Part shown: positions 8,526-53,831 of the stretch, one piece after another
How positions within the stretch are numbered: the stretch's first letter is position 1
How the letters are laid out: every line of letters begins with the position of its first letter
Assembly (NCBI RefSeq): GCF_964204865.1
Contig: NC_135259.1
Location: 15,014,974 to 15,078,973, forward strand
Reading direction: 5' to 3'
Origin: Styela clava
Taxonomy: Eukaryota > Chordata > Ascidiacea > Stolidobranchia > Styelidae
Length of the DNA stretch: 64,000 bases
Notes under the pieces: model-generated
Seen by the model: only the letters and a program-made list of their open reading frames with translations
What the model was told of the DNA's origin: nothing
Databases searched by the model: none
Program-made: the position numbers and the translations under genes

Positions 8526-8629
8526 TCATTTATTGTCATACTCAAACAGAATTTAGGAATTACTGGATAACAGTATGCTGTGATAATGAACAATGTTTAA
8601 ATGAATACGCTAATAACACACTAATCTAC

Positions 8630-21047: not shown

Positions 21048-22528
21048 TCAGCACTCTGTTGGCATGCTTTGAGGATCACAGGGTTCTGGATATACCTCCC
21101 TCTTCACCAATTGTCTGATTAATTCTGCTGCAGCGTGTTCAGCACTCCCTGCTGGCGAATCATAACCACTTCCTCTGCTACAACTGCCTGACTGGCGTGC
21201 TGTTGGGTCTTGACATATTCCGTGGAATTTGAACCATTTGTATACTCTGGCGGTACAGATGGAGATATGGCCGCCATAATTTACCTAAAATTGGAAACGG
21301 ACATTATAGTCATTTGTCAAGACAGCTTGCTTTTTAAAATTATTTCTCTTTCTTGAAATATTGTGATCGTTTCACAGAAAGAATTGTCGGAAGTGGTACT
21401 ACATTTCATATAAAGTAATAGAGAGAGAGAGTGAGAGATTAAACTAGTTTGGTATAGACAGGAGGGAGTGATACGACCAGACGGTCATCAAAGTCAACTC
21501 CCCCCCTTTACACTATTACGTTTAAGATTCACAATCCCAGATGCTAGATATGACTGAATACAACCGTCTGGCGTCTTTCATAAATAATGACAAAATTGAA
21601 ATAATGACATCATCGAATATTTCATCATAATGACTTACTGATAGTTCTTCGTAGGGTTTCATGAATTGCAGGGTATCAGCAACGTTCTTCCAAGATATAG
21701 AATATTCGCATTGATCTCCGACATAGCAGTGTGGACAGTTGCATGAAGGCTCAGGATTAGACCAACGTCCATTTTGTAGGCATGTCAAAGTATTGTTGCC
21801 CTTTTAAAAATATAAGAAAGCATCTATTCATGGAAATTCGTTGATAAGCAACAGTATCTGAGAGTATTTTTATATAATTGCTGGCCATCAAAAAAGCTAT
21901 TTCAGAACTGTTTTCCTAGTTTCCTCATTTTTGTACCTGGATATGATGGTTGTCCAGACATTTCACAGTGCATGTCGAATTCACGAAAAATTGATTAGTG
22001 CAGTTCAATTGCCCATGAGATATCGGATTGAGTGGGTCACATGCTGTATTTGAAAAAAGAAAACATATAGCATACGTCAATTCATTGCAACTTATATTGC
22101 GTACATGTATGTTTTCAATGATAATATGGATGCTCTACTCAGTAAAGGACATATTGAGCTTATATAAACAAAGTTTGTTGATTTTTTAGGAAGCTGCACG
22201 AGACATGTACATGGAAGCCAGGCTATGACTATAGAAACCGCCCAATCAATCCAGCTGAGCAGAGCAAAGTTGACGCCGACATTATAGTACATAAACTCTC
22301 TTGTTTGGGTAATATCATATTTAGACAGGACATCGTGGATATACGAACCTTTCTCACACACGGGTTTTCTATCGTTCCATTTTCCACCAATACAGACAAT
22401 CGTTTGTTTTCCGAAGATTCCGTAACCTTCATCACACACAAAATTGCATTTTTTATTGTATTTGTCTGATTCATTTGAACACGTCACATTCCCGTGCAAT
22501 GGAGCGCTCATGTTACCGCAGTGTGGCG
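21048..22528 (-). other. Gene A ectodomain exons 11-14
   Basis: Exon 11 is a complete Sushi/CCP module with four cysteines and a GKWNDRKPVC ending. Exons 12 and 13 form a second Sushi split by an intron. That is followed by a compact CNCPHCYVGDQCEYS EGF-like knot. Exon 14 encodes a tail with VYKWFKFHG, an AEHAAAELIRQLV helix and YPEPCDPQ near the end. I do not recognise the tail as a known domain. Confidence 0.85.
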
Positions 22529-25500
22529 CTGAAAATAAAAGTGGCGACATAAATGAAAGGGATATGCCTCATGTTCTAAATCTCGTTTAAAGTTTTGGAG
22601 ACTTTCCAGAATTTCGTTCGTCTGTGTTTGTCTTCTGTATTGAAATTTTCTGGACCATAAATTTTGTACCATTAACCAATTGTTAATCATGTACCCTTTG
22701 TACCAGCGTAGTCCAAGGTTGTGAGATAGGACTGAAGGCCGCAAACAATTTTAAGAAGGCCTTGCGGGTTGCAGTCGGAAAAACCCAAAAATGATCAAAA
22801 TACTGTGAGTTCAGATGCTTTAATTATGAAAGAATGATAGTTTACTGTTTTTGTTATGTTGCATCGGTGGCGTTTTTTACTTTAAGGGAGATATATAAAG
22901 CACACAGAAAATAACAAAACTATTGTTTCTTGATTGTAGCTACTGCTTCAGTTCTACGTTTCTTCACTGCTGTCACATGGGCCACGTTTGTAAATAGAGG
23001 TGTGTTTTACTAAATAAAGGCACAAAACGCATTCAGCCCGCGTGCCAACATTTTCAGAAAGGAAATAAAAATAATTTGCTTCACGTACCGTTCATTACTT
23101 TTATTCTCCAGATAATAATTCCAACAGATGCAATCGCACTGAATGACAGAAATAAGGCCAAAACAAGAAGAACTTTCTTTATGGACATAAACTTCTTTTC
23201 CACAACTGTAAAAAAATATTATTTTGTGAATAAGTATAAGTTAAAAATACTTGATGAATATGAAAGATATTATATATACATATCATATTTAAGTATGATT
23301 TGATAAACTCATCCTGATCTTCTGGGATTGATTTCGATGACTGTTCTGTAGATTCATTCCTTCTTTCAGTACTTTGGCTAATAGTCCGGCAGATAAGGGG
23401 CCTTTTTGGGCTCAACCTTGTTTTCAGACATGAAGTTTTTTTTATTTGTGATTGTTCATTTTGGGGTCATTGCCCATCATTTCTACATGGGTGGGGAGTT
23501 TGCAGCTTTGAGCAATTTTTTTACGGCTTGATATTTGTATTAGTGTTTTTCGTCAAATTCGTGCACCATAATGGCGCACAACCTGAGACCTAACCTGGTA
23601 CACATACTATTTTTAGGTTGTGTGTGTAAAAAAATCATAATTCAATATTGCAGTATATGCAATGTCAAATATGAACGCCCGGAAACGGACTCTTGTGGAT
23701 GGCACCACGTCTCATGGAGTAGGTTCAATCAATTACTCATTATCTCTAATCGCAAATGCCGATTTGGTGAAGACATGCGTATAGTTATATAAGACTTACC
23801 GTATCTTGGAACAGCGCTAGAAGATAGTAGCAATGGCGTTGATTCATTGACTGTTGGTTGGTCAATAGAATTCCGACTTTCATTCGAATCGACAACTGTC
23901 ATAGGTTTAGTTTCTGCACTGCAGTTGGGGGCACTTGTAGGTCTCTGTGGCAAATCACCTCCGTTTGATGGACGTCTATTTTCATTAAGGTAGCTGCTGT
24001 GAGGTTGACGTTCTTGAATGCTCAAATTTTGCGAGCTACATTGTGTGTCGTATGAAGTTCTTTCAATTAGCTTAATCAAAAATAATACTTATCAGATGGA
24101 GACGGAAATGTTCACAGAATTATAGCAAAAACAAAAAACACAAATGGGAATAGCACTCGAAAACAGAAACAAAGATCAGGAAAAAGGTAATGAGGACTTA
24201 ATTAGGATAGGAAGCCGATAAGACGGCTTAACCATATGGCGAACCACGGCCTCTCGTCCGGTTACCATTCCATGTCGGGTATGGGATTAGTTATATTGTT
24301 CGTTTTCGGAAGCCTGAACTTGATGGAGTAGGAAGTCGTAACCGACCAGCGGTACGTGAACCACCCTACGGCGACGAGGAGCCCAGACATCTTCTCGCAC
24401 GTAATTATCCCCGCATGGGATTCAAACCTGCGAACCCACGCATAGTAATCGAAGATGCGGTGGCGAGCGTATTCCTAACGCTTACCACGATGAGCCACAC
24501 CGTCGCGCCGCCGTGGTGAATAATGATGGTCACAAAGAAAGAGCCTGATAATAGTGTTATATATAAGAAAAAGTTGGGATAGAGAAGAAATGACAATAGA
24601 GATATGAACAACAATTTATCAAATATTTTTGAAAGAAAACTAGAATAGACTAGATGCGAGAGCATGAGACCAAACACGAAAAAGAAGATGTGATAGCCTA
24701 TAGCGAGAGGCGAGGAGAAAGGGCTGGATAAACTGAAAGGAAAGGTAAATACGAGGACTTTACGCACCTTGTGTCGTGCCAATGTTTGAATTCGTGATTG
24801 GCGAACTTGTCCTTTGTAATCCGGAATATCCTTTATAATAGAAAATATCTCGTCTTCGAGCTCTAAAAATATAATAACGATCCCATGTAGACTACCTCAC
24901 TGCGATTGCTTACGACCTCCTATAGTGCAAATTTACGCTACGTCAAATATCAAGCTCATGTCAAATTATTACTCACTTTTTATTTTTCTAAATGTCGAGT
25001 TGTTAATATTATACAATTGTTCAAATTTACCGTTCCAATCTCTATAAGGGTATAAATTTAAATGTAACGTTGGTTTAGTATCAGACACCGAAACCAGGTA
25101 TGTAATAAATATTGCGAAGAATGATTTTAATCAACCTTTGAAGGTGGGTCTTTCGGACGGTTCTTGTGCCCACGACGATTCCATTATATTTGTCATTCCA
25201 TCAGGAAATATTTGAGGAACAAGAGAAACCTCCGGACGAAGTTTGTTGATTATGACATGATTAGCAATCTGTTCGTTGTTCATTCCTGTCCATAATAAAT
25301 AACATGATATAATGTTGATCCAATGTTCCCCTAACCGTGTTACCCCGAAAATAAGACAGGATCTTATTTCAATTTCTTTCGAAAAATAACCCTAGGGGGG
25401 ATGTCTTTTATTTTCATTTATCAAAAACAAAATTACAAAGTAGATAACTACGAAATTTTCTAATATACAAAATATAAAAACCGATATCCATTAATTTATA

Positions 25501-28500
25501 AATGACGTTTGCCTCTCTCACACCATTTAGATTAATCATTTAAAACTGTAGGAGAGATTCTTGCTATCGACTAGGTCAAAAACATTCGCGCTATCGACTA
25601 GGCCTTAATGTAAGGGGAAGACTTATATTAGAATCATTTTTAAAATTTTCAGACTAGGTCCTATTTTCAGGGTAGGTTTTAATTTCGGGAATACACTGTA
25701 TTATTGGTCACGAAGTGTACATATTGATCGCTTTTGGACCCGAAATTGACCCATGGATCGTTTGCTATTATGTTGTTCTTGCTGGTATTTTTCTTCTTGT
25801 GCTATTATGTTGTTCTTGTTGGTATTTTTCTTCTTGTGCTATTATGTTGTTCTTGTTGGTATTTTTCTTCTCGTGCTATTATGTTGTTCTTGCTGCTATT
25901 TTCCTTCTTGTGCTATTATGTTGTTCTTGCTGCTATTTTTCTTCTTGTGCTATTATGTTGTTCTTGTTGGTATTTTTCTTCGTATTGTTTTGAAAAAATC
26001 GCTTTTTTCCTCAATTACTGGACTAATTTCGATTAAAGATTGTATTTTCGTTAAAAAGGCTATTACTTTTATTTGTTTTCAAAAATCCATGTAGGTCTTA
26101 TTTTTATGAAAATAATTTTTTTGTGTGCCAGATGTCATCGAGATTAGTGGAACTTATGGCGCGTTCACGTTGATCGTGAAGACTGCGGTACCGATAGTCT
26201 ACTGTGACAGGTTACATACGTTCTATTTTGTTTTAGCCCTCGTGTCCATATATTTGAACAACGCTCTTTTGTTTGTAATTACTGACTACGTTTATTACGC
26301 CATCAAATTATCATTCCAGTATGTTTATAAACACAATGCCAATGATAGCAAGAACAAAAATACGCAGATGTAGTATTAGTCCTATTCGTCGATTATTTTC
26401 TTTAAGTATATGACAATGTGACTGTCAGTCCAAGTAATAAATATATCAAGACATTCATAGCATTTAAACTTTCGTGAATATTAGTGATTGTAATATATTA
26501 TTCTAACTATACATTTAAAAATCTCCGTCTACAGCTTCACAATCCAGACTGATCAAAGGGTTGACTCGAAATCCAACTTTTGATTTCAATTTTAAAATAT
26601 AATTTTGGCTGGTAATCCAGCTTCCAAACTCCAAGATCACGGATTAATGATAACAAACATATTTATTTTATGCAAGTTCATCTTAGTTTCTGTTGCAAAT
26701 TTTAACTCCCAACTCCAGTGAGTTACAATTTTGACTCCGACTTCAAGGTCTTAAAATAGACATATTGGTTATGACTGCGGCACCAAAACCAGCACTACAA
26801 CACCCCAACTCCGACTTTTACAGTCCAGGACAAAAATGCTACATCTCTCACTACTTATAGACAAAAAAATATGACTCGCGCTTACCTTCGTAAGAGAGTG
26901 TATCTGTTAGTATTTCCCATTCTAGAATTCCAAAGCTGCAGAAAATACAATTCAAACTCATATATAGGTAAATTGATCAAAAAAGGGCAATGTCGAACTA
27001 AACAAATTAGCTAGCAGTCAGTGCACATTAGAGATTATAGCAATACAATTGAATTGAAACAATAATTGTTTTTGTCCAATTTTTATTTTTACTTCAAGTT
27101 ATTAAATTAATCAAGTTATTTAACTTGATAAAAAATAAATAATTTTCGCAATAAAAGTTTTGTCCTCACGCATATACATCAGACTTTGTTGTAGGTTTGA
27201 ATTTTGGATCTGCAAGTCTCTGTGGATCAATGTAACCAGGTGTTCCAGCAATGGAACCTGAAATGAAAGGCTATAAACTCAACCACGAAAACAATTCATC
27301 AAACTCCTTTTGTTATTCTTTGGTTTCTCAAATATTCAAATCAGACATGACTATATATTGTATAATGGTTCAACAAAAATTCAAACAAACATTTTGTAAA
27401 ACAGACATCGTCATTTTCATAACAAAAACCGGAAAACCACCTCGCTTAAGTATTTTGATTACACAGTGTCCTAATCAATTACACTACGAGAAGAGGCACT
27501 GCGAAAACATTGAGATTTGAATTTTCCAAAATATTAAATAAAAGATGCAAAACTTACGCACTAACACTGTTGATCTTGAGCGTAAAGTATTCAGTGTTCT
27601 CATTTGACTTAATCCAAAATCGCATAACTGAACAAAATATATAATAGTTCGATCAGATTGCTATGTTTTGCTTTAAATACTGTATCAATAAATGCATATA
27701 AGGTAGTTCATACCAAATAGTCACAACGAGATATTATCAAAACATAGGGTACAACGAAGTATTGATTTTAAAAAATGAACTATAAATAGACGTTCTTGTT
27801 CCGTGGCAACTGCGATTCTTGTTCCTGCTGATCCCAGAAATATTTCAAGACCAAATCAATCTGACTGAATCATCTATAATTTGTTGATGTTTGTTAAAAT
27901 TACGAAATTTCAATGTTGTTTCTACAAACGTCAAGACGGTGCCAATATGGGAATGACATCCTGTGAACGATACAAGGAGAATGAATTGTCTTGTGCAGAG
28001 TGCAGGCTAAACCCAGCCGATGAGACGAGCACTATAAAGTGGCTATTATGCATAGGAAGGAAGGAAATAAGAGTTTCAAAATAGGCAAGGTAAAAAATTC
28101 AACGACAAGGATTATAAACCTCTGTACTGTCACAGAGTTAGTCGGAACTTAATCAACTATAAAATACCTTAGCATGCAATTCACTGTCCAACAACACATT
28201 GTCACTTTTCAGATCCAGATGTAAAACCGGCGGACTTCTGTTGTGCAAATAATTCATTGCTGATATTATCTGAAGATAAAACCGTTTTGAACAAATAGAA
28301 AATAAATCTGAATGAAGATAATTTTTATACATATGTAAATAAATTTATAGCCAGCAATAAACCAAGGCTCTTTTTCGTGGTAATATCATTTTCACCATAT
28401 TCTATTGTATAGGATTTATATGTCATCCAATAAAAGAAATGTAACATTTCAATGAACGTGAAAGTTGATAAAATATTTTAAATTGTTTCAATTGCTGCCA

Positions 28501-29770
28501 AAATTAATTTTTTATAAATCAAATACACTTCCAGCCTGCTTATATTATATTTTGTTGACATTTAAGCAAACCCCCAGAGTGCTGTGCAACACATGAACTT
28601 AAAATATTTAACAAAAATCGCGCAGCAAACCTCAGATATTATTTTAATTTTCAATGGAGCCAAAACTTTGTCGATTGTTGCCGTTTCTTCAATATTGTCT
28701 CTTAAATCATGAAAGAACTTCAAATATGATTTAAATTTGTGATACTCCATCACAAGTCCAAAATCGTGGTCAGTTTGCACAGCACCGTAGGTTCTCACAA
28801 TGTTTTCGTGATCAAGTTTAGAAAGAATTGCCATCTCTTTTTTAAGATTAGAACGGTATCTGTAAATATAAGTTAAAAATATTGTTTATTATATAAAATA
28901 TTTTTTTGTCTCAGGTGTCTCAGTTTTTTGAAATTTGTTAATCGAAAATTGATATCTTACTTGCTCGAATGTTATTACAAATTACACGTGGCTACTAAAA
29001 TCGAGTTGGGAAATCGAATACCAAATTGAATCATGAATAAGTCGAATCATCTGATCATAATTGAGTTTAAGACATATAATTTACCGGTAACTATGGGAAC
29101 AGTTTTAAGCAGATGTTGATTACATCTGTAATTAGGTTGTGGTATTTTTTCCGTAAAATAAGTAGGACTGTCTGTCTATCATTTTACTACGGTAGTGTGG
29201 GTAGAATAACAGCGATTCGATTTATAAATTAATTTAGTCCTAATAACGGATGTCACTGCTCGATAACCTCAGTATTTGTTTTTTGCTCCCGGAATGCCTA
29301 TTTTTTGATTCATTTTATATTCTGTTTATACAAAGTGTATTTTCAACATGATAAATAGAAATAAAAATGTTGATAGATATATAAAACTGCCAGGCAGATA
29401 AAGTAGAATAGTTAGAACATAATAAAAAATAACATTCTTTGATTCAAAGCTTAGGAAATTACCTAACAATAAAAAAAACTTCAGACAGGAATAAAACTAG
29501 TTATTCTAACTAAACATTTTTCAAATTCAATGCCAAATAAGGTCAGGTCAGGTGATTTGGTGGCTACTCATGTTGTACCTACCTCAATGCCATCGATCCT
29601 CGGAATAGACTTTTCTTCGCCACTAAAAAGATAGATCCATTTTTATTCCATTCATAAAGCGATATATCCGCCATTCCACCACTGTCTATTAGCTCGACGA
29701 ATTTCATGCTCTGAAAATCTATAAGTGGTATTTCTTCTTCATGCTTATTGCCAACACCGTTTGGTGACAT
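21048..29770 (-). CDS. Gene A: type II receptor kinase with Sushi domains
   Basis: Fourteen minus-strand exons, all with GT-AG borders: 29770-29583, 28859-28631, 28269-28168, 27627-27558, 27257-27170, 26935-26886, 25285-25136, 24862-24768, 24070-23800, 23205-23089, 22528-22349, 22043-21937, 21800-21639, 21284-21048. They join to 2046 nt (681 residues) without a stop. In order: kinase domain (residues about 18-292), helical linker, Ser/Pro-rich segment (about 325-414), membrane helix (about 425-447), Sushi 1 (454-513), Sushi 2 (514-about 571), EGF-like knot, and a 78-residue Cys-containing tail. No signal peptide is present, so the kinase should be cytosolic and the Sushi domains outside. The first ATG is the only Met available in the exon. 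The closest relative is gene B, head to head 2.7 kb away. The product probably phosphorylates Ser/Thr after ligand binding; the ligand is unknown. Confidence 0.88.
23089..23205 (-). other. Gene A transmembrane exon
   Basis: This 117-nt phase 1-1 exon encodes a Lys-rich lead (VEKKFMSIKK), then about 23 hydrophobic residues including VLLVLALFLSFSAIASVG and ending IIIW. Positive charge before the helix agrees with an N-terminus-in orientation. Confidence 0.85.
24203..24512 (-). mobile_element. tRNA-derived SINE copy 3 in intron 8 of gene A
   Basis: The reverse complement carries CGGTGTGGCTCATCGTGG (A box region) and GGTTTGAATCCCATGC (B box). The same body as copy 1 follows, and the GGCTTCCTATCCTAATT tail lies toward 24203. 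It sits in the same transcriptional orientation as gene A, between exons 9 and 8. Confidence 0.88.
25750..26390 (+). repeat. Dispersed repeat X, copy 1
   Basis: It shares ATTATGTTGTT, TTGAAAAAATCGCTTTT, ATTACTGGAC and TACTGTGA-AG-TTACATAC with the copies at 44050-44460 (minus) and 48840-49225 (plus). The class is unknown; it could be a non-LTR-type retroposon fragment. Confidence 0.7.
25765..25985 (+). repeat. 37-bp minisatellite, six units
   Basis: CTATTATGTTGTTCTTG units start at 25765, 25802, 25839, 25876, 25913 and 25950, an exact 37-bp period. The array lies within a dispersed repeat and in intron 6 of gene A. Because 37 is not a multiple of three, all three plus-strand frames stay open. 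These frames are repeat artefacts and are not annotated as genes. Confidence 0.95.
26525..26835. repeat. Degenerate ACTCCGACTC-type repeat
   Basis: Recurring words such as CCAACTCC, GACTCCGACTTC and ACTCCGACTTTTACAG lie in intron 6 of gene A. Similar words occur downstream of the RELCH-like gene. This is an old simple or dispersed repeat. Confidence 0.4.
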
Positions 29771-41500: not shown

Positions 41501-41602
41501 GGAGGAGCAAAGCATGCGGCGGCCGAGTTGATTCGTAAACTTGTTCAACAAACATTATATCCTGAACCCTGTGATCCTCAAAACATGCCTACAAATTGTT
41601 GA
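32514..41602 (+). CDS. Gene B: type II receptor kinase with Sushi domains
   Basis: Fourteen plus-strand exons with GT-AG borders: 32514-32701, 34700-34928, 35165-35266, 35800-35869, 36128-36215, 36560-36609, 37179-37328, 37522-37619, 37745-38012, 38365-38481, 38964-39143, 40241-40347, 40812-40973, 41366-41602. They join to 2046 nt (681 residues). Twelve of the exons have the same length as in gene A; exons 8 and 9 differ by +3 and -3. The order is kinase, linker, Ser/Pro-rich segment, membrane helix, Sushi, Sushi, EGF-like knot, Cys tail. An in-frame TGA six bases before the ATG fixes the start and rules out a signal peptide in this exon. The product is a type II membrane kinase, presumably a surface sensor; ligand and substrates are unknown. 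Three or more repeat elements occupy its introns. Confidence 0.9.
32938..32968 (-). mobile_element. Small SINE body remnant in gene B intron 1
   Basis: AGGACTTGATGGTTGAGG followed by AAGTCGTA resembles the reverse complement of the SINE body (CTTCCTCCACCACCAAGTCC). Only about 30 bp is recognisable. Confidence 0.35.
33201..34301. mobile_element. hAT element 7 in gene B intron 1
   Basis: TAGGGCTGTCCAA at 33201 and TTGGACAGCCCTA ending at 34301 are inverted repeats. A perfect 8-bp duplication, ATTCTGAC, flanks them (33193-33200, 34302-34309). ATTCGAATCG-rich subterminal blocks lie inside both ends. No transposase is recognised. Confidence 0.94.
35620..35740. repeat. Degenerate GACTCG simple repeat
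   Basis: TGACTCGA-type words recur about seven times in intron 3 of gene B, with no coding signal. Confidence 0.5.
37745..38012 (+). other. Gene B juxtamembrane exon 9
   Basis: A Ser/Pro/Arg-rich, probably unstructured segment between kinase and membrane. RRPISAPN here matches QRPTSAPN in gene A inside an otherwise diverged exon. The R-x-x-S-x-P pattern resembles a mode-1 14-3-3 site. The exon ends in a conserved VPRYG. Confidence 0.75.
38365..38481 (+). other. Gene B transmembrane exon
   Basis: A 117-nt phase 1-1 exon. It encodes LEKKLVSTKK, then the hydrophobic run VLLVLALFLSVCAITSVG followed by VVVW. It is aligned residue for residue with the gene A exon. Confidence 0.88.
39268..40116. 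mobile_element. hAT-like element 8 in gene B intron 11
   Basis: The ends are CAGTGATTCTCAACA at 39268 and TTGACGAGAACCAG near 40100-40113, an imperfect inverted repeat typical of degraded hAT elements. A clear 8-bp duplication is not visible. A decayed transposase C-terminus lies inside on the minus strand. Confidence 0.6.
39468..39700 (-). pseudogene. hAT transposase C-terminal remnant
   Basis: The minus-strand translation has FWISLDGKYPKLSDKSIKLL followed by LSPRPNWRIV with a decayed context. It resembles the hATC region (W-SL-YP-LS-KA pattern) of ZBED5/FAM200-like transposases. It is antisense to gene B and intronic. Confidence 0.6.
40455..40688. repeat. Palindromic MITE in gene B intron 12
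   Basis: Arms of about 55 bp are near-perfect inverted copies: GTATGGGAACCAAGATGGCG and its continuation at 40466-40514, mirrored near 40622-40675. The inner words TAGTATGTGTACCAG and GTTAGGTCATAATTT are shared with repeats near 23570-23620, 48245-48290 and 62950-62995. Confidence 0.85.
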
Positions 41603-43353
41603 CTATCGCAGTCTTTTATCTAAAATAGATAACCGTTGGCTTCAAAGATAAATCCAGATGTGAAATGCCAGACATCGATACGATGGAATTACGACTTAAC
41701 CATCGCTACTATCACAAATACAATCTATTTTCTCCTGCAAATATTCTCAAGTAATATTAAACTTATACCATTAAATGATTAAAGCTGTTTACTGTGATGC
41801 ACAAATGAGCAAAGGTATCAACCATGCTCATGTACCAAGCAAAACTCTAACAGTGAATTACAGAGAAAAAGACGGATATTAAACTATAGTCATGTTGTGA
41901 TTAGCTAAATGGTGGTTTTGACTTCTTGCTATATTAGTCTCCGACTTCGTTCTGTAAGATGTTATTGAATTCCGAATTCACAACCTTGCTACTGAAGCTC
42001 AATTTATCTGATTCAACACCGTGATTGCGCGGTAATTTTTTTTATTCCAGAATAATTTTTCGAGTGTAACTATAATATGGTTTATTCAGAACCACATTTT
42101 CAGTTTGTGAAATCATTGTTCTCAAATTATTATTTAGTCACCAATTGCAGTTTTCTGTTAAGAAAGAATACGATTTTGTAATATTTCCATGCGAATTCTA
42201 TTGCGTTATTATAACATCACATTAACATAAATATATTAAAATATGACTATAACTTAAAAACGTGATTGTATTTTAGTCAAGGTTACTACACCTTAAGGAT
42301 TTTGGACACTTCTATAGAATTATTTAAACTCAAGATATAAATTCAAACCCATGTTCTGCATATTTGTTATTGATAAATAAGTACCAGTGTGGGTATGCCA
42401 TTATTATTTTGACAGTTGTACAGTAAGACAAAAATGCAATATTTTATTCATTACATGAAAACTAAGATAGAAAATTTGCTACTATAAGTAGTATTTATTA
42501 CTTTATTTCTTCTCATACTTCTGTCTGAATGACATTAAAAAAAAAATATTTTGAAAGATTTTGAATGTTTTGCTTGCTGTAGAAATGCAATATTAGAATT
42601 TCTTGGAACTTCCAATGCCATATTGTGTATATACTGAACACTCAAAACATACAATTGCATTAGCATGGTACAATACATGCGGTATTCATCTTTCAGGCTA
42701 TTCTGCAAGCATTACTGCCGGTTTTTATGTCAACCAGAACCAGTTTGGGTAATGTTTATGTTTGTTGAGATCTTGATTTCGTAGTTTTGACGTGATTTCT
42801 TACGTGTACGAAATGTGTCAAAACTTTTCAGTCAGTTGTTTTTTTGGCGAACAAACCTCAACAACTTTGTTTGCTTGCTGAAATAGTGCTGTTCTTCATA
42901 TTAGCCACTTTGGTCCTAGAAAAACATTTATAGAAATTTAACAGTTTTGAAAAAGTGAGCTATTCAAATTATAAAACAGAAAAAAGAGGTATTAAATTTA
43001 AATATTTTGAATATTTGTATTTTAAAAGTATCGAGTATTTAAAAAAGAAAGAAGCACCAATATCACAATTTTATCATAAATAGTTTGCTATTGGTCCACG
43101 TAAAGATTCGATCAAAGACTCAAAAATACCTGTTTTAAATATACTAATATTTACACAGTGGCACTAAGCTACTTCATTAGAAAGTTATATTGAAATATTT
43201 GTTTAATACGCATAAATGACCCATTTATTTGAACCCAAATTTCTTTGCTTTTGCGAGGATTTTTTGAACTATTGTACATTCTATCTAATTTACTCTAAAA
43301 AAATAAAAAAAAACTTGAGTAAAAAAAACACCAAAGCCAAATATAATACTCAC
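41603..43353. other. Interval between convergent 3' ends of B and C
   Basis: AT-rich sequence in which no exon was recognised. The terminal exon of gene C should lie here, but no minus-strand stretch resembling its Cys-rich modules or the gene A/B tail was found by eye. Confidence 0.4.
41756..41761 (+). terminator. Candidate polyadenylation signal of gene B
   Basis: ATTAAA lies about 155 nt after the gene B stop. It is a common variant signal; no other support is visible. Confidence 0.3.
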
Positions 43354-44959
43354 GATAAGAATGACAGCATAGTCTAGTATTAGGTCCAGCACATTTGCCA
43401 TCAAGATATTCTGTCGGGCAGTAATTGGTTTTATCCATACAAGTTCCCTTGAGACTGTCACATTCCGGGTCTTTGTAGGCGTCTTCAGCAGTTTTACCTA
43501 TTTCAAAACTATATAATGACAAATAGAAACAAAGCATAATATTATCAAGAAAATAAACTATGTTGAATTTAGAGTCTTTGTAAGACCGATATTTAGAATT
43601 TGGATCGTAGTAAACAAACAAAGCAAATAGTGAAATATGTCCAACTGAGACTGGGAAGAAGCAAACCATTTACGTTTTGTGAACAAATAAATTACAAATA
43701 ATTGACGTAGCGATCACTTGCTAATAATTTAGAGTCACAGTTCGATAATTGAAATTATGATAAGCAGCAGTAGAACTAAAATGAAAAGTGATAAAAACAA
43801 CTTTGAAAACTTGTTTCCCTATTATGTGTGTACCCACATTGTGCATCACATGCAAGACAACACCTAATGACGGAATCGCCAGTACATAGTCCACTTCTAT
43901 ATCCTGCAATACATTTATAGTCAGTCCAATTTATACATTTTCCTTCTCGCTCTGTGCATTTCTTGTCGGCAGCTGTAAACATATATATATATATGAAACA
44001 TCCTTGAAGCGGGATTAGAATAAAAGAACACTATATATATATATTTTGCGTGTAATCAATACGATATTAATACAAGGCAACAATGCTTAAATATATGAAC
44101 ATGAATGTCAAAATGAGGTAGTACGGGTATGGGGTATGTAATCTTTCACAGTAGCCTTCCGGCACCGCGGTCTTTACGTCTTCGCCTGACCACCAGATAA
44201 CAATTAACGCGAACACGGAACCGCCACAATTTTTAATTTCGATGACGTCATCGCACACAAAAAACGAATTCCATAGAGACCATAGAAATTTCTGATACAA
44301 ATAAAAGTAATACCGTTCTAGCAAAACAATCTTTTAACCATTAAAATTTAAAAGCATTTTGTCCAGTAATGAAAGAGAAAGACGATTTTTCACAAAATAC
44401 CAACAAGTACAACAACATAATAACAAAACGATCCATAGGTACATTTCGTGTTCAAAAAACAATCTGTATACTTACGATTCGGTGGGCAGCATTGTCGATC
44501 TCCTGGGCCGGGACATTTCCCTTTAATATATTGTTGAGAGCAATAATTGGATTTGTCTTTACATATCCCATGAATGCTATCACAAGCAGTATCATTATAT
44601 CCAGCTTCTGTCTTTTGACCTGTAGTAAATTCATAAATTAATTTCTATTTTTTTTTCAATTATTTTTTCCTGGATGTTTCAAAGCTATCCTGTGAAGTAA
44701 ATTGACTAATTTTGATATAGTTCTGGCAAGACAGGCTGGGGAAACTTCACTATAATTGATCCTGATGGCATATATATCTGTTTGTATTAAAATCACGCCG
44801 AGCTGGTAGGCTATACCCACTTACAATCAGTATCGCAGGGTAAACAGCATTGAATACTCGAGTCTCCGCTGCATAATCCACTTCTATATCCAGCAACGCA
44901 CGTGTGTTCGTACCAATTCAGGCAAGTTCCCGATTTTGATGTACACTTGTAGTTTGGAG
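43354..44959 (-). other. Gene C ectodomain, four Cys-rich modules
   Basis: Exons 11 to 14 are 135, 144, 135 and 144 nt, all phase 1-1. Modules 1 and 3 share the pattern KC-x-GxC-NW-x-C-AGYRSGLC-x-GDS-x-CC. Modules 2 and 4 share ECDS-x-GxC-x-DKxNYC-x-Y-x-GKC-GP-x-CC. The -GxCxGP-xx-CC ending recalls short Cys-rich domains on invertebrate secreted enzymes, but I cannot name the family securely. Confidence 0.8.
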
Positions 44960-47900
44960 CTGTCATAAATATATATTTGAGAAAATTCGATCATCGGTCT
45001 TGATGATTACATAAAAGACGAGAGAGAAAAATATTGCTATGCTTTGACAGAGTAATGGGTTTAGACAGGAATCTTGTTTTTAATTTCAACGTTTTATCTG
45101 AGTATGCCCATTTTAGTCTCTTTTTTTTCAAAATTACCGGGCATGTAACACTGATTATATATTTTGATGTAGCCTAATATATGTCTTTCACTTTCAGTAA
45201 TCACCAAGGCCCTTTAATAAGTTTTTAAAAATTTACCTGAGCAAAATTATTCGCAAAATATTTAATGCAATTCAACACTAAAGCATAATACCTGGTGGCT
45301 TAGTCGATGTCCATATTCCAACCGAAAGTCCGATAATTACACATGTGAGAAGTACGATGACGAACAATAATTTTAGTGGCGACAATCCTGCAAATCCTGC
45401 GTCTGTAATTATACAGAAACGTCGCTGATTGAAATACATAACGTGAGGAGTGATATTTACTGCGCAAATTGATCGGCAAAAGAATCTCAGTATTCATATA
45501 AACCAGTGGTGGGATTCAAAATGTTAAGAATGGGTTCTCATTTGTATCCTCGCTAACAACGGGTCATTTGTAACTCGCTAACAACGGGTTCCCTCATTTC
45601 AGAAAATAATGACGAACCAAAACATAAACATCACGCGAACCTGTTCGAACCCTTTGAATTTGACCACTGTATATATATCCATAGTGAGTGAAGGTACAAG
45701 CACAACTGCATCACCAAATTTGAATAAAAAATGTTAAAAAACCAATATCGTAACTAATCATGGAGCATTGCAATTTTGTTAAATAACTACACTGTGGTTA
45801 AAATGGGATGCATGGATTATGGGATGAACATTTCGCATGCAATATTACATTTAGTGGGGTTTCATGCGCTACATCATACCATTATTCATGGAACGAATTG
45901 TACGAGGCTCAAAACTGCTATCACTATTATGCCTTGAAGTATTGGTGCTGGAAGAAAGTAAAGGACTGTTTTCTTCATCTCCCCATGCACCAACAACCCG
46001 TTGTGGCGTCGTACCATTGAAAATTCTTTTTGATAAATTTCTTGTATCAGGGCTACGGATGTGCTGTGGCTTAGCTGATGATTTTGTACCCTGACTGCCT
46101 TCGGCGTAACCTGTGGTGCAGATTGACTGTCCGGGGTGTTGCATATTGCTGGATTGTGAAGACACGCTTTGCTGCTGTGTATTGCCATCAGATCCCGCAC
46201 GTGTCTATGTAAAAACATGACATAATTTTCTATCAAAATACGCTACTTAAGGCGATTTTTTTGAAAAAAAACGGAAACCCTTACCGACTTGTATAGTTGT
46301 AACGTTTGAATTCGAGATTCCTTAACTTGATGTTTATAACACGGAATTCGAGCTTTAATTGACAGCATCTCTTCATCAAGTTCTGAAGATATTGCAAACG
46401 AAAATTTATAAATGATTTAATAAAAAAAAAATTAGAAACTTGTAAATCTATAGATCATTCTGCTAAATTGTTGTTATTGGTATATTAAAAACCCTTTACC
46501 TTCATCTATCGCACCTATCTTTATCATATTTTTTCAGTAGTTGAAGAGGGATGCGTTACCAGTATGCTATTATTTATTGCATTATATTAATTTTCTTGGT
46601 TCGTGGTGTTCACGCTAAAATCTGCTGGTTTTAATATATGACTACAGTACATGGATTTTTTGCTTGATTGATTTGGTGAACATGTGACGAACACCACAAC
46701 ATAGTGGTTTTATTATACCGGGTGCCGTCTGGGTTTAATGTAATACATGACACGAGTTTTAAACGTAATCGACGGTAGCAGTATTCACATATATTTTTAT
46801 AGACTCACCTCTGAAACTCGGTCTTGCTTTCGGATCACTCGCCCAAGCTGACCGTATCATACTTGTCATTTCTGATGGAAATACATTGGGCAGTAACGAA
46901 AGATCTGGTCGCTGTTCTTCTGAGTCGTCAGAATGATAGTCACTAGTGACAGGCTCTGTGTAAAAAATAACCAACAAACCAGTTAATCAGAGATAAAATG
47001 AGTTGCGCGTTGATGCGCAGCATTAGAGCAAACCATTTATTCGAAGTGTGAAGCATAACGACGCAAATAAAAATGGAATGAAGTTCTCTGTACAATATAC
47101 TTGACGAAATGCGAGTGTAAAGGATTGATTATACATTGCGTTGTACAGGCTGGTTCCACACAACTCGCTTTAGATGAAACAAATCAGTTACGTTTATAAT
47201 GTTTCAAACAAATATATATATATACGTGATAATAATTATTATGATCAAAATATAAATGCCAAAGCATGAAAGTTTTGATACCAATTGATATTTGTGGCAG
47301 AAGTTTCGAATATTTTGCACAAAGCCCCCGCCCAAAATAAGCATCGCCACCGCTCGTGGCGTAGCCAGGTTTTGAGGGTCGAAATCCCCCCCTTTGAAAT
47401 GAAGGATTATTCTGTATCATACATTGCCATTTTTCGTAGAATGAAATGCTGTATATAAACAGAATCCGCTTAGAAGATTTTGAATCCCAACGCAGAACAA
47501 AACAATTGTTATATGATAATCGTAGCTGATGCACAATACACTTAGATACGAAGTTCACAACCTGAAAAATAGTTTACAAATTTATTCGTAATTTCTTACC
47601 TGAGTACGGTAGCTTATCTGTCATGATCTCCCACATAACTACACCAAATCTAAATGAAATAAATAAATATACATTTTCAAGTATTTGAAACGATATCACA
47701 ATATATTCTATTGTTTACTTTGTTCGAATCTGTTTCACAAAGCAATTTAGGCAGAAGATTGTTGTTCGTACACTGACAGGAGTTTCGAAGTATCAATTCA
47801 GTATCTCCAAGAAAATTGCATGGCGCGGGAAAATTGCTTGGACATTTATCAAACACATTGCGCGTCTGTGTTTTAGTCATCCTCGATGATTACTAAATAT

Positions 47901-50900
47901 TATTGTAACATCTGTTATCCTACATCTGTTATAAAAATACACCGACAATTGTGCTCTAATAATATTATTTACATTTGTCGATGACTTTTTTGAAGCGGAT
48001 TACTTGTGTATACCATTGATACATACACATATTTGAATAATAGTTTACTTAACTGCGATAGACATAAATTCAATATAAATGACTAAAGAAAGTTACAACC
48101 TTGGTGATGTTTGGATATGTATCAAAAAAGCAAACACTGAATGTCAAAATCCTGAAGTTTACGGACAAAGCGATAACGGATACGTTTTCGCATTTGCTGT
48201 TACTGAGAGAGAGAGAGTAATAAAATAAATAAATAAAGAAAAAACGGTACTCCCGTAGTATGTGCACCAGGTTGGGTATGGGCCATAATTTTATTCAGAT
48301 TTTCCTTATTTTAGTTCTATTACGAGTTTGTGGACTGTCTGTGTTAGTCAAGTGAATATACATAGGTTCCATAGGTTTCACTCCCTTTACACAATTTGAT
48401 GTAAAGTAGGCGAACAAAATTAGCTACCTGCATATTAGTACACATACTTCTGGAGCGCTAAAAAAACAATAAAAGTCTTATCGGCAAATAATCTGTTGGT
48501 TTTGATTTGGAGACAGTGATGCAATCAATACGGCATAGACGAACCTTTTTAAAAAGGAAGGGTCAAAAACTAACTATATTCGTGTCACGAGAAAGAAGAT
48601 TGTGTGACATCAATGAGGCCCTTGTTGTTGAATCTTATCTTTGGATAGTTGGTTTTTGTACATGCAGCACTTATATCAGGGCTGAGGCGGTTTCCGGTAC
48701 TCGTTTTTATAAAAATTATGTACGAAAACGCGGTTCCGCATGCATATGAATTACCGTTAAACATTAAACGATACTATGGTAAATTACAAGCTTGTCCATG
48801 GGAAACGTCCCAAGGGATGAGATGGGACAGCAACATTTGTATTTATCATGGAACACGGAATTATTATTGGACATGGAATGGACCTATGGAGAGTTTCATT
48901 ATTATGTTGTTGTTCACATAATTGCTCTTGTTCTTGTTATTGTTAGAATTTTACCTACTATCGTTATGAAAAAATCGCTTTTCTCTTTTATTACTGGGCA
49001 AAGTGCTTTGAAATTTTCAGTAGTTGAATATTGTATTTTTGCTACAAAGCTATCACTATTATTTATTCATACATTTTCTATGAATCCTATAAGATTTATT
49101 ATTTTATTCAATTTCGCTGTATTATTATTACTCATGGGAACACAAATTTATAAACTGATTCATGTAGCATAGATCATTTTACGAGACGAATAAACATACA
49201 TACATACATACATACATACACAGCTGAAAAAGCTGGGACAGTCCGCGTACATTTTACAAAGTCAATAAATTTTGTTGTTTTGCATGTCTCTTTGTACATG
49301 TAGTCCTATTTAGTAGACGCTAAATCGAAATTTTACAATTTTTATTGAATTGTATTCCAATGGGAATCCCATGAGATGGGACAGGCATAGATCTCTATGG
49401 GATGGTGCAGAAAAATATGTGCCATGGACAAGCCTGGTAAAATAACAAACTGAAAAGTAGCACAGAGTTTTTGTCACCCCGCCCGCCCCCCAAAAAATCT
49501 TGCGGCTGCCCTAATTCATTAACCTCAAAAAGAGAACCCGTAACACGACGCTACGAGGAATAAGCACATTAATTGTAATTGTTTAGGCATATATATACGA
49601 TGTATCAGCTTTGTTGCCTGTAGTTGCATACAGGTTTCGTAAATAACCATATCGCGGCTCGGAAATTCTCCATGCAACGGTTTTCAAAACTATCGCCGCT
49701 AAGTAGAATTGATTAAGCATACATCATATTTTCTTTTATCGTGTTTTGGAATAAACGCGTAGCAATGATCTTCACAGGCTTCGTTTAAAACTGACAATAT
49801 ATAAACGGGCAAATTGCTCTCGACATTTTTAACCTGGAGTGCGTATGGTATCGTTTCTGTTCCTGGTAACTATAAGCGAAATGCTGCCGTTGTCACGTGA
49901 ACTTCATGCGATATATAGCATATTTAAAATGAGTTGAGACATTTTGATCTGTCATGGAACTAATAAAACAAAATTTATGATGCTTTTCACTTTATCTTTA
50001 GTGTGTGATGATACCGTTTCAATTTATGAATAACCAAAGCGTGCAGAGTGAATTTCAACATTTTTTACGACTTCGTCACGAAACTTCAAACCCAGGAGTC
50101 ATTAACTACAATAAAGTTCATTTTGATTCGTAACATCTGAAAAACAAGATATTTAACTTTGTAACCCAAGAGTTAGTGGTTTGTCATCCCTGCTATAGGT
50201 CATAGGTAATTTAACTCCGCGTCCGCTTATCTTCACAAAAAACATTGCAAAAAAACAAAGAAACACTGGTCTATTCTGTTGAACTCATTTGGAAAAACAT
50301 TTCGACTTGTTAATATAGAGTGAATTTCATTGCCGACATATCACCGCTACGGAGCAGAAAAACAATGTTTGCGCATAGCAGCAGTTTTAACGATGTATTG
50401 TTTCTTGCTATTTCAAAATTGTTGCGTTTATGATATCATACACCTTAGTCAATTTTGTAAAAAGCAATGAATAGCTAGCATACACAATGTCATTGTCTCT
50501 GTGTTACTCATCGTATGCAAAGTAGTAATTTTTTTTAAATACAAGGTACAAGATATATTTTCATTCTGTTCTGACGAATTATTCAAGTGTGACTCAAGTT
50601 CGTAACAATGCCATCCTAATATTCATAAATGGCAAGCCAATGGGTAATCTTCCAATCCTTGAGGGACTCGGTAAATACTATCTGCCATGTTTTCCACAAA
50701 AAAGAATATGAATGGGAACGGCCACATCGACACATGAATTACAGTACCTATACAAACCAGCATTAAAAAAAAATCACAATTTTTTTTAAACGTACGAGAA
50801 TACATCCGCTTTTGTAGTTGGCTTTGCTCTAACGTTCCTCAGCCGTTCTGGCGAGATATATCCTGGAGTTCCACCCGTTGCACCAGGACCTGCACATATA

Positions 50901-53831
50901 TAGAGTATACAGTAAATCATGGGTCGGCAACTTAAGGGCCTGTGGGCCAAATTCGACACGCGGAGTAAAATGATCCGGCCCACGACGCTTCACTGAATCA
51001 TAGCGACAAAACGGAGTTTTTGACGATGAGTAATTTTATAATCCACGCTCTAAGAGTTGATATTCTTTACGTAACAGAATTTATTGTGAGACATATGTAG
51101 ATTAAATTACATTATATCCTAACAATTTAGTGAACGGCTACTCGTTTAACGAGCCTACAATTTAATTATATTTACCAAATGGCAACACGCAAAACAGTAG
51201 ATGCTGAGTGCAGAGGGTTGAATGGCGCAGAAAGAAATCGAATAGAGCTTTTTGAGATGTAATGCAACGAAGAAATGAAATCCATATTCTATTCGAGAGA
51301 TGTATCATTACTGTTTGATTTTTATATAAAATATCTTCTTGAAGGAAATCTATATATATCCAAATTCAATAAACCATGTGACAAATTCAGATTGATGTTT
51401 GGAAGTAAATATGCGTGCGAACAAATATTTTCGAAAATGAACATTACAAAGAACAATCTGAGAACACGGATTGGTGATGCCCTTTTAGAAAATGTTATAA
51501 CTTTGGCTTCATCCGATGTGCCGCCTGATGTCGAAAAGCTATCAGGCGTGATGCAACAACAAGTGTCACAATAAATTTCATTTGTAAATTTTTTTTCTAC
51601 TAAGACGACTGAGTTTCAACTGACTGAATGATCTGTGTAAAAAAATTGTTGTTCATCGGACATACGTTCGGTTTTTAACTTTCTAAAAGTATGTGCGGCC
51701 CGCCAAGACTTGCAACCTTTAATTAAGGCCCGCGAGCGACAAAAAATTGCCGACCTCTGCAGTAAATATATATGGTATGTTGAATTTGGTTGTTACCGTA
51801 CGTGCACAGTCGCGTACACTTTGAAAGTCATGTTTAGTTCGATGTCAACGCGGTAATACCACGACACTATGCAAATAATTAAAATTGCTCATATTTGCTT
51901 TTCAAGACATATAAATGCCAGCAAGTTATGTGAGGACAACTGTATTAAATAAATGAGGGGATTCGAAATATATAAATAGAGATGGTAGAGTTGATATAAA
52001 AACGTAAAACGGTTAAAATCGTTTTTATCTCGTGGCATATACTATGCACCGAATGATTTATTCACTTGACGCCTCAACGATGTTTGCGGTAAAGTGTTAT
52101 GAAATTTCCATGTTGCATTAGATGTAACTTTAACTATATTTGGTTAAGAAGGAGCATTTAAAAATAAGTCTCGGTCGGTAAACACAATGTACTATTATAT
52201 AATAATTACCTTCTATTATAATGGATCTGCTTCGGAGATCAGTTAACGTGCTCATAGTGCTCAATCCGAAATCACAAATCTTAAGTAAAAAAAAAAAATT
52301 TGAATAATCTGGATGTAGTCAAAGTCAAATAATGTATTTCATAACACATCGTTTAGAAGCAATAACACAATGCAATATTACTTTTGCATGAAGACTATCA
52401 TCTAGCAGTACATTGTCGCTTTTCAAATCCAAATGTAAAACTTTTCTTGGTCTGATTCCGTGTAAATACTTCATTGCTGATATTATCTGTAAAACACACA
52501 ATGAAGATTTACTATTTGCAATTGACTCATATTACAATAATACACAGCCTCTTAAAATTATATTGGATTCATTTGCCACCATATTGTCAAATGATGCCAT
52601 TTTCGATGTTGTCAGGGCTCAGCCATATATCAGAATGTTAAACAAGCCTTGTTCAAATCTACCTAGAAGTAAACTTATTCGTTTTCGAAAAGCATTCTTA
52701 TATCACACAGAAAAATTGTCCGATTTCTGACAGATATAATTGGGTAAAAATAGGTACCGAATGTACAAAAATACAACAATATGAGTCTGTTTAAACATAT
52801 CAATTATACTAACCTCGCACAATATTTGAATTTTGATTGGCACGATTAATTTTTCTATGATGTCATTTTTTTCGAATTCGTCCCATAGACTGCCAAAAAA
52901 ACTGAGATAGGAACCGAAAGGGAAGTACTCCATAACAAGCCCAAATTTATCGCTAGTCTGTACGACACCAAATATTTGCACAATGTTCTCGTGTTCCAAA
53001 GTTGCAAGAATTGCCATCTCCCGACGTAGATGAGGCTTAAATCTGAAAGTAATTTATTTATTATATGACCTTGATCAAATTTAGTGAAAAAAAATGACGT
53101 TGAAAACATGCATATCCATAAGTAGTTTTATCAACTTGAATTCCGAGAATATACATGCCTACGTATTTTACACATGTGTTTGAAATATAATAAGTGAGCA
53201 GAAAATGATCCGAATATTCGAAATATTTAAACTGCGTAAAACGCACAATTCTTTTAACTAACGAGTAAGTTTGTAAACTTATCTATGGTGATCCATAGGT
53301 ATTCATGGTATTATAACTCTCGTTATTTTTTCCCACCATTAAAGTGCATTTTTTCCTTGCAATATTTTACTATAAACGAGAAAACTACTCCTATAACCTT
53401 TTATGTCCGCCGTACATGCGTTAATAACGTTGTTTGTCGTTTTCTGTCCACCACAAACCATGGATGGGATGTGCTAGATGGGCCTACATCGATTCTACAG
53501 AAATATCGGTTATCGTCTAAATTTATTATTATAATTAGTAGGAATGAGTTGTGATTTTAAACAGCAATGAGAAAAGTTCTGTCATCAAATAGTTTTGCAT
53601 TGAGCATATTAGGTCATAGGATCATTGAGAATACTCTTACTCTCACCTGTTTTCTATATGACCGTGAAGAAGACTTTTCATTGCCACGAAAATTTCAGTT
53701 GAAGTTTTTCTCCTCCATTTGTACAAAGAAACTGCAGCCATTCCACCGCTTGCCAAGTATTGAACAAATTCCATCTCATTGGAGTTGATAATTTTTATCC
53801 CTGTTTCATGATTTCCATTGGCCGAATCCAT
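43354..53831 (-). CDS. Gene C: type II receptor kinase, Cys-rich ectodomain
   Basis: Fourteen minus-strand exons are supported: 53831-53647, 53042-52814, 52486-52382, 52279-52210, 50889-50796, 47649-47600, 46955-46809, 46382-46285, 46204-45880, 45402-45292, 44959-44825, 44619-44476, 43972-43838, 43497-43354. They join to 1972 nt, at least 657 residues, and end in phase 1 at a GTGAGT donor, so a last exon is missing from this model. Reading through that donor would add about 15 residues before a stop. The kinase is at about 20-293, the linker to 326, the Ser-rich segment to 434 and the membrane helix at about 446-464. Four alternating Cys-rich modules follow instead of the Sushi domains of A and B. 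Kinase intron positions and phases match A and B. The likely role is a surface sensor kinase with a different ligand-binding part. Confidence 0.82.
44050..44460 (-). repeat. Dispersed repeat X, copy 2
   Basis: The reverse complement contains CCTATGGATCGTTTTG, ATTATGTTGTTG and ATTACTGGACAAAATGC, as in copies 1 and 3. It lies in intron 12 of gene C. The minus-strand frame at 44067-44324 is repeat-derived. Confidence 0.7.
45292..45402 (-). other. Gene C transmembrane exon
   Basis: This 111-nt phase 1-1 exon encodes AGLSPLK followed by the hydrophobic run LLFVIVLLTCVIIGLSVGIW. It takes the same place and phase as the A and B helix exons, but the sequence has diverged. Confidence 0.82.
45504..45669. 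mobile_element. Short hAT MITE 9 in gene C intron 9
   Basis: CAGTGGTGGGATTCAAA at 45504 is mirrored by TTTGAATTTGACCACTG ending at 45669. The internal CGCTAACAACGGGT is repeated. The same terminal family occurs at 17891-20217. No clean 8-bp duplication is visible. Confidence 0.75.
48240..48460. repeat. Copy of GTAGTATGTG-type MITE
   Basis: ACTCCCGTAGTATGTGCACC and GGGCCATAATTTTATTC match the inner part of the palindromic element at 40455-40688 and the copy near 62950-63070. It lies in intron 5 of gene C. Confidence 0.6.
48840..49225 (+). repeat. Dispersed repeat X, copy 3, with CATA tail
   Basis: It shares ACCTATGG, TTATTATGTTGTTGTTC, ATGAAAAAATCGCTTTTC and ATTACTGGGC with copies 1 and 2. 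It ends in GACGAATAAACATACATAC, running into (CATA)n to about 49222, as retroposon tails do. The frame at 48792-49172 is repeat-derived. Confidence 0.7.
50918..51759 (+). mobile_element. hAT element 10 beside gene C exon 5
   Basis: CATGGGTCGGCAACTT at 50918 is mirrored by AAATTGCCGACCTCTG ending at 51759. A perfect 8-bp duplication, CAGTAAAT, flanks it (50910-50917, 51760-51767). Subterminal GGCCC blocks are present. It carries the C-terminal part of a transposase (51275-51574). It lies in intron 4 of gene C, 28 bp from the exon 5 acceptor. Confidence 0.94.
51275..51574 (+). pseudogene. hAT transposase C-terminal fragment
   Basis: A 99-residue frame with FGSKYACEQIFSKMNITKNN and the following LRTRIGDALLENVITLA. 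This is the hATC dimerisation pattern seen in EPM2AIP1/GTF2IRD2-like transposases. It is an isolated fragment with no catalytic core, so not a working gene. Confidence 0.8.

Follow-up and report, generated by a model that had tools for sequence, protein, structure and literature searches.

A 64,000-nucleotide stretch of the genome of the ascidian Styela clava (hereafter the window; positions are counted from its first base) contains three paralogous spliced genes, i.e., A (minus strand, 29770 to 21048), B (plus strand, 32514 to 41602) and C (minus strand, 53831 to 42896), each of which encodes, in one open frame, a protein kinase, a linker, a single hydrophobic helix and a C-terminal half rich in Cys. 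We interpret these genes as members of a tunicate family of type II RIP-kinase receptors with one membrane pass, in which sensor and kinase would be combined in one chain with a predicted topology and a putative ligand and output; we place the probability of this interpretation at roughly 0.77. The initial annotation of this DNA had proposed type II (N-in) receptor kinases, and that proposal is supported here by a contig that crosses the exon junctions (P0217), by the count of this layout among kinase proteins and by a relative in Clavelina, while the topology is still a prediction.

Gene models were built by hand at splice sites, guided by exon-by-exon tblastx, in which the exons of A and B match one by one and matches to C are weaker. 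The starts of A and B are 2.7 kb apart, head to head, and the ends of B and C are 1.3 kb apart, tail to tail. A and B have 14 exons and encode 681 amino acids (aa) each; C, to which the initial annotation had also assigned 14 exons, has 15 (663 aa), with a 20-base last exon as in the annotated proteins P0003 and P0004. All 40 introns (13 in A, 13 in B and 14 in C) show GT-AG boundaries, and exons 1-10 end in identical phases in all three genes (2,0,0,1,2,1,1,0,1,1), as expected from the earlier claim that kinase, linker and helix exons are kept in number and phase. Among annotated Styela clava proteins, model A matches P0002 (98.8% over 681 aa), model B matches P0001 (97.0% over 501 aa) and model C matches P0003 (98.0% over 657 aa) and P0004 (100% over 364 aa and 99.1% over 225 aa). 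Public annotation names these genes RIPK1-like, RIPK2-like, RIPK3-like, ankyrin/kinase-like or uncharacterised.

The join between kinase and ectodomain is not accidental, because both halves are constrained, P0217 spans the junctions, and a fourth Styela member (P0005) and a Clavelina lepadiformis protein (P0006) share the layout. Between A and B, the ratio of nonsynonymous to synonymous substitution rates (dN/dS) is 0.15 in the kinase, 0.27 in the linker, 0.14 in the transmembrane (TM) exon and 0.10 in the ectodomain; these ratios are rough, with dS ranging from 1.1 to 2.4 (1.1 in the kinase, 1.7 in the TM exon, 2.2 in the ectodomain) and saturated in the tail exon. Judged by these values, the kinase and ectodomain halves are both under purifying selection. 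P0217 is a continuous 421-aa open reading frame (ORF) on a 1,481-base contig (source 'lgn', which we take to be assembled public read sets) and is 51% identical to residues 233-654 of C. The match spans eight exon junctions, from that of exons 6 and 7 to that of exons 13 and 14, and covers the kinase C-lobe, linker, helix and ectodomain; exons 9-11, over which the initial annotation had proposed cDNA sequencing, are crossed by this contig in one ORF. As P0217 is without introns, we infer that it derives from RNA, the alternative being an intronless genomic copy.

P0005 has the layout of C, and its matches in the window are partial and all inside A, B or C, indicating that it is encoded outside the window. 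P0006 (916 aa) comes from another ascidian order than Styela; one piece of its alignment with P0002 runs through kinase, linker, helix and two CCPs (2e-51), and a second reaches the last Cys of the tail and the last residue (8e-21). A TM-like segment after the kinase was found in 7 of the 217 kinase proteins among the matches listed from three protein searches (the best 120 of 1,737, the best 120 of 2,232 and 4 of 4); two of these searches scored approx. 8,000 candidates each, and the listed matches are rich in plant kinases and do not amount to a proteome survey. All seven belong to this family (P0001-P0006 and P0217, from six genes). The order of kinase, TM helix and CCP that the initial annotation suggested looking for was recovered as kinase, helix and ectodomain in these proteins, Clavelina included, but C-type members lack CCP. 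Its argument that conserved exons speak against accidental joining is strengthened, as the same join occurs in A, B, C, P0005 and P0006 and is spanned by P0217.

Hydropathy analysis identified one strong helix per gene (Kyte-Doolittle (KD) score 2.6-3.0); C has a second, weaker hydrophobic peak (KD 1.56) located within the kinase. The first 60 residues of A, B and C include no hydrophobic stretch, and an in-frame genomic stop lies upstream of the ATG at the third codon in A, the second in B (the stop already reported for this gene) and the eleventh in C. In C, AG dinucleotides occur downstream of the last in-frame stop and ahead of the ATG; A and B have none in that interval. Given the upstream stops and the missing N-terminal hydrophobic stretch, no N-terminal signal peptide was seen, although from DNA alone a spliced 5' exon could supply one. 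The type I receptor-kinase layout (signal peptide and N-terminal ectodomain ahead of the kinase) is not found in A, B or C, and the layout of kinase, one helix and Cys-rich ectodomain is common to A, B, C, P0005, P0006 and, over its length, P0217.

The two sides of the helix also differ in composition. The numbers of Lys or Arg (K/R) residues before and after the helix are 5/2 in A, 5/4 in B, 3/0 in P0005, 4/1 in P0006 and 3/1 in P0217, so that a positive-inside pattern is present in five of the six members. After the helix there are 20 Cys in A, 20 in B, 28 in C, 28 in P0005, 36 in P0006 and 28 in P0217, all even numbers, as compared to 3, 4, 4, 5, 7 and 1, respectively, before it (P0217 being incomplete in its N-terminal part). 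CCP domains are known as disulphide-bonded modules found outside the cell. In the AlphaFold model of P0002, most of the kinase is at high confidence, a single long helix spans residues 423-452 and the linker is of low confidence. Overall, the asymmetry in charge and Cys makes an N-in/C-out orientation the natural reading, and falls short of proof.

The kinase was classified by several comparisons. Pfam protein kinase matches have E values of 1.5e-38 (A), 1.4e-39 (B) and 9.7e-42 (C), and in phmmer searches of PDB, RIPK1 was the top match for B (6.9e-36), P0005 (2.2e-35) and P0006 (1.5e-37). When kinase domains were scored one by one against 210 outsiders, a RIPK1 fragment ranked first for B (124.3 bits vs. 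122.4 for the next, plant CTR1, a small lead of approx. 2 bits), C (130.5 vs. 109.3), P0005 (125.5 vs. 113.5) and P0006 (132.9 vs. 114.8). The Foldseek top ten for the P0002 AlphaFold model consisted of three RIPK3, two RIPK1, one RIPK2, one MLKL, two MerTK and one CTR1 chains. In a kinase tree of 25 rows (six family kinases including P0121, a short contig ORF described below; vertebrate RIPK2 and MLKL were not among the rows), support was 83/90 for the family and 86/84 for vertebrate RIPK1/3/4/ANKK1, with long branches for Clavelina, RIPK1 and others. Clade tests, for groups named after the tree had been seen, did not reject a union of the family with vertebrate RIPK1/3/4/ANKK1 (approximately unbiased test, p-AU 0.43); a union with plant CTR1 was rejected (p-AU 0.009). 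Taken together, PDB matches, bit scores and fold suggest RIP-like as the best label for this kinase, the tree being compatible with more than one exact place.

The beta3 Lys (K53), the alphaC Glu (E71), the catalytic D158, N163 and the DFG motif (D176-G178) are invariant in all six rows compared (five genes), consistent with the initial annotation, and by these retained residues the kinase is catalytically equipped; in the proteins from Styela, A or S takes the place of the third G-loop glycine. The RHIM tetrad [IV]Q[IVL]G was found in 0 of 10 family sequences or versions, and Pfam scans of A, B, C, P0005 and P0006 gave no match to a death domain, CARD or ankyrin repeats.

Two stretches of each ectodomain match Pfam Sushi/CCP in A (E 6.6e-22) and B (E 6.4e-19), and the second CCP is followed by an EGF-like piece (called by eye) and by a tail exon of 77-78 residues without a Pfam match. 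The C ectodomain, for which there was no Pfam match either, repeats a two-exon module (57% identity between exons 11 and 13, 47% between exons 12 and 14). The Cys-rich extracellular-type modules described earlier are thus CCPs in A and B, but two-exon Cys modules in C. When the C-type Cys module region was searched against a 5.8-billion-sequence set, by a method requiring shared 5-residue words and similar total length, all four matches obtained belonged to this family (three from Styela and one other). The ectodomain types are CCP-CCP-EGF-like-tail (A and B), a version with more CCPs (Clavelina P0006) and tandem Cys modules (C and P0005). As the TM exon is of phase 1-1 in A, B and C, modules behind it can be exchanged with the frame kept, and the pattern looks like ectodomain exchange by phase-1 exon shuffling. 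Given the CCPs or Cys modules in their ectodomains, these proteins may recognise complement-like or microbial surfaces and may have an immune role.

An acidic dileucine-type motif, [DE]xxxL[LI], is present in the linkers of A (ESTPLL), B (ELAPLL), C (ENSPLL) and P0217 (EKTCLL), 22-38 residues before the helix. As 2.5-18.5% of shuffled linkers also contain a match, single matches are weak and serve as a lead. The annotated C isoform X3 (P0004) is without ENSPLL, a loss that use of an in-frame donor inside the exon (GT at 46089-46088) would explain. Acidic dileucine motifs sort type II proteins; if the motif is a sorting signal, splicing of the linker would tune the surface level of the receptor.

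A number of observations weigh against the interpretation as type II RIP-kinase receptors. With regard to the join, P0121, a 356-aa ORF on a 1,239-base contig (61% to P0002 over 48%), has no TM-like segment and consists of a whole kinase followed by 29 residues that do not resemble exon 9; this could represent a soluble isoform in the family or simply the end of the contig. The initial annotation had named transcripts ending before the membrane exon as evidence against its model; P0217 runs through the helix, but P0121 may be such a soluble form. In addition, the annotated B protein (P0001) shifts frame in CCP1 (exon 11, 38964-39143) and ends at 525 aa where B in the window is open, reflecting either a polymorphic truncation or a difference in assembly or annotation. 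With regard to topology, the C helix has one K/R before and two after it, contrary to the positive-inside rule, the even Cys count of P0006 depends on where the helix is cut (1-2 of the counted Cys sit at the helix end), and neither of two AlphaFold models of family members contains a confident ectodomain. The dileucine-type motif is missing from two of the six members, P0005 and P0006. With regard to kinase identity, RIPK1 ranks only third for A (118.7 bits, after scores of 123.9 and 119.9; the two ahead of it are a plant CTR1 and an unnamed kinase), and the best matches outside the family among those listed from the protein searches are plant and unnamed kinases, some with two kinase domains, rather than RIPKs. 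In the tree, the deep fork holding the family, vertebrate RIPKs, a sponge RIPK2-like protein and a fungal kinase is open at 72/60, and a grouping of Clavelina with RIPK1 apart from the rest was not rejected (p-AU 0.075).

Among the alternatives, the most serious, though in our view unlikely, is that the same type II protein is an endolysosomal or granule sensor of luminal ligands (e.g., in haemocyte phagosomes) and not a cell-surface receptor. The [DE]xxxL[LI] motifs in the linkers of A, B, C and P0217, the absence of the motif from C isoform X3 and the sorting role of such motifs in type II proteins agree with this possibility, but the motif is missing in P0005 and P0006 and arises in 2.5-18.5% of shuffled linkers. 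It seems improbable that the kinase has become structural, with an ectodomain serving mainly in adhesion or, once shed, as a decoy; the isoforms, the truncated annotated B and the altered G-loop glycine would fit, whereas the invariant catalytic Lys, Glu, Asp, Asn and DFG and the kinase dN/dS of 0.15 between A and B speak against it.

A gene-model error, in which a soluble RIP kinase gene was wrongly joined to an unrelated secreted or membrane gene, is highly improbable. RIPKs known from elsewhere are as a rule soluble, and P0121 could be a kinase-only transcript, but mis-joining was rejected given the identical join in A, B, C, P0005 and Clavelina P0006, the contig P0217 that spans it and the exon phases locked in three genes. 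Least probable of all is the opposite orientation, with a luminal ectokinase and a cytosolic Cys-rich half: the charges flanking the C helix, taken alone, are compatible with it, but the kinase half is Cys-poor, the C-terminal half is Cys-rich with CCPs in A and B, and the positive-inside pattern is seen in five of six members. Type II RIP-kinase receptors thus are our preferred explanation; the coordinates of the three genes are as follows.

Table 1. Parts of genes A, B and C in the window
Feature	Position	Strand	Basis
A exons 1-8, N-terminal RIP-type kinase	24768..29770	-	tblastx to B, spliced model, Pfam PK_Tyr_Ser-Thr 1.5e-38, P0002 match
A exons 1-8, limits	29770-29583, 28859-28631, 28269-28168, 27627-27558, 27257-27170, 26935-26886, 25285-25136, 24862-24768	-	
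A exon 9, predicted cytosolic linker, ESTPLL 22 residues N-terminal of helix	23800..24070	-	spliced model, motif scan
A exon 10, phase 1-1, predicted TM helix, residues 428-446, KD 2.62	23089..23205	-	hydropathy; AlphaFold helix 423-452 in P0002
A exons 11-14, predicted ectodomain, 20 Cys	21048..22528	-	Pfam Sushi 6.6e-22 (2 stretches), Cys count, homology to Clavelina C-terminus
A ectodomain parts	CCP1 22528-22349; CCP2 + EGF-like 22043-21937, 21800-21639; C-terminal tail domain 21284-21048	-	
B exons 1-8, N-terminal RIP-type kinase	32514..37619	+	spliced model, Pfam, top PDB match RIPK1 6.9e-36
B exon 9, linker with ELAPLL	37745..38012	+	spliced model, motif scan
B exon 10, phase 1-1, predicted single TM helix, KD 2.69	38365..38481	+	spliced model, hydropathy
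B exons 11-14, CCP1, CCP2 + EGF-like, tail domain, 20 Cys	38964..41602	+	spliced model, Pfam, Cys count; stop TGA 41600-41602
C exons 1-8, N-terminal RIP-type kinase	46285..53831	-	tblastx, spliced model, Pfam 9.7e-42
C exon 9, linker with ENSPLL	45880..46204	-	isoform comparison, motif scan
C exon 10, phase 1-1, predicted single TM helix, KD 2.99	45292..45402	-	spliced model, hydropathy
C exons 11-14, all phase 1-1, two-exon Cys module twice in tandem, 28 Cys, no Pfam match	43354..44959	-	
C exon 15, 20 bases, last 6 residues RPKWLI and stop	42896..42915	-	agrees with P0003/P0004

Within the introns of A (approx. 26 kb) and C (approx. 44.4 kb and 48.9 kb), tblastx found short common stretches in opposite orientation, which are perhaps similar to miniature inverted-repeat transposable elements. 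Elsewhere in the window, an intronless 1,185-aa ORF with HEAT repeats (8468-12025, plus strand; Pfam HEAT 2.5e-11) presumably resembles RELCH and, being intronless beside intron-rich genes, is possibly a retrocopy. Two hAT-type transposase pieces (3633-4085 and 6479-6751, plus strand; DUF4371 8.6e-13, hAT dimerisation 1e-10) adjoin the GC-richest part of the window; a third putative piece (3968-4696) had no Pfam match.

Known RIPKs are soluble and end in a RHIM/death domain, CARD or ankyrin repeats. The Styela family resembles vertebrate RIPK1, RIPK2, RIPK3, RIPK4 and ANKK1 in its kinase domain, by sequence and fold, and in having an N-terminal kinase with a long flexible linker behind it, but differs in carrying a TM helix and an ectodomain after the kinase and no RHIM tetrad. 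Animal receptor kinases of type I (e.g., receptor tyrosine kinases and TGF-beta receptors) place the ectodomain first; they share with the Styela family an ectodomain, one helix and a kinase in a single chain, whereas in Styela the kinase comes first and the ectodomain last, with no signal peptide seen. To our knowledge, a kinase-first order is not known among animal receptor kinases. Teneurins are described as type II proteins of animals that cross the membrane once, carry EGF-like domains outside the cell and arose by gene fusion; unlike the Styela family they are not known to carry a kinase. Bacterial PASTA kinases (PknB/Stk1), with an N-terminal Ser/Thr kinase, one helix and C-terminal external sensor repeats, have the layout of the Styela family, but the kinase in Styela is RIP-type and of tunicate origin, and Pfam scans of A, B, C, P0005 and P0006 gave no match to PASTA repeats. 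The kinase family itself is known, and a type II receptor architecture of a RIP kinase was not found in print; among the papers listed from the open-licence literature (3 of 3, 15 of 24 and 10 of 70 matches), no title or abstract opening described a kinase-first animal receptor, in line with the initial annotation, which knew of no described family with this architecture. Bacterial PASTA kinases are treated in PMC4632501 and PMC4601284.

According to one paper (PMC11476962), vertebrate RIPK1 is recruited to death receptors by adaptors, with NF-kB, MAPK or, through RIPK3, MLKL as output. The same paper reports MLKL from Ciona intestinalis and Styela clava and, in a passage in which that of Styela does not appear, lists the N-terminal domain of Ciona MLKL as a strong killer (PMC11476962). 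A 2025 survey states that tunicates yielded no RIPK1 homologue combining kinase, RHIM and death domain (PMC12119088).

If the preferred reading is correct, a catalytically equipped RIP-type kinase would lie N-terminally in the cytosol, tied by a flexible linker to one signal-anchor helix, with the disulphide-rich C-terminal ectodomain facing the lumen or the cell exterior. Binding of a ligand or surface would cluster the ectodomains, in place of adaptor recruitment, and the linker would let adjacent kinases phosphorylate one another. The active kinase would then signal like vertebrate RIPKs, toward NF-kB/MAPK or MLKL-type death, bypassing the RHIM/death-domain route by which RIPK1 is recruited, and the dileucine-type motifs of the linker, dropped in one annotated C isoform, would set the surface level. 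A broader hypothesis, which we offer only tentatively and consider doubtful, is that tunicates, in which according to the published survey RHIM/death-domain RIPK1 is missing while MLKL is kept, run RIP signalling via directly ligand-gated, inverted-topology receptor kinases. Each of these would unite sensor and RIP kinase on one polypeptide, and phase-1 exon shuffling would have exchanged the ectodomains.

RIP kinases are known as soluble centres of inflammatory and necroptotic signalling, dependent on adaptors for contact with a receptor. If the proposed architecture is true, a kinase-first receptor layout would be workable in animals, and the family would represent a natural single-chain RIP receptor that annotation names such as RIPK-like, ankyrin/kinase-like and uncharacterised hide from view. 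Such receptors would give tunicates a route for coupling extracellular sensing to RIP/MLKL-type signalling without a RIPK1 that carries RHIM and death domain.

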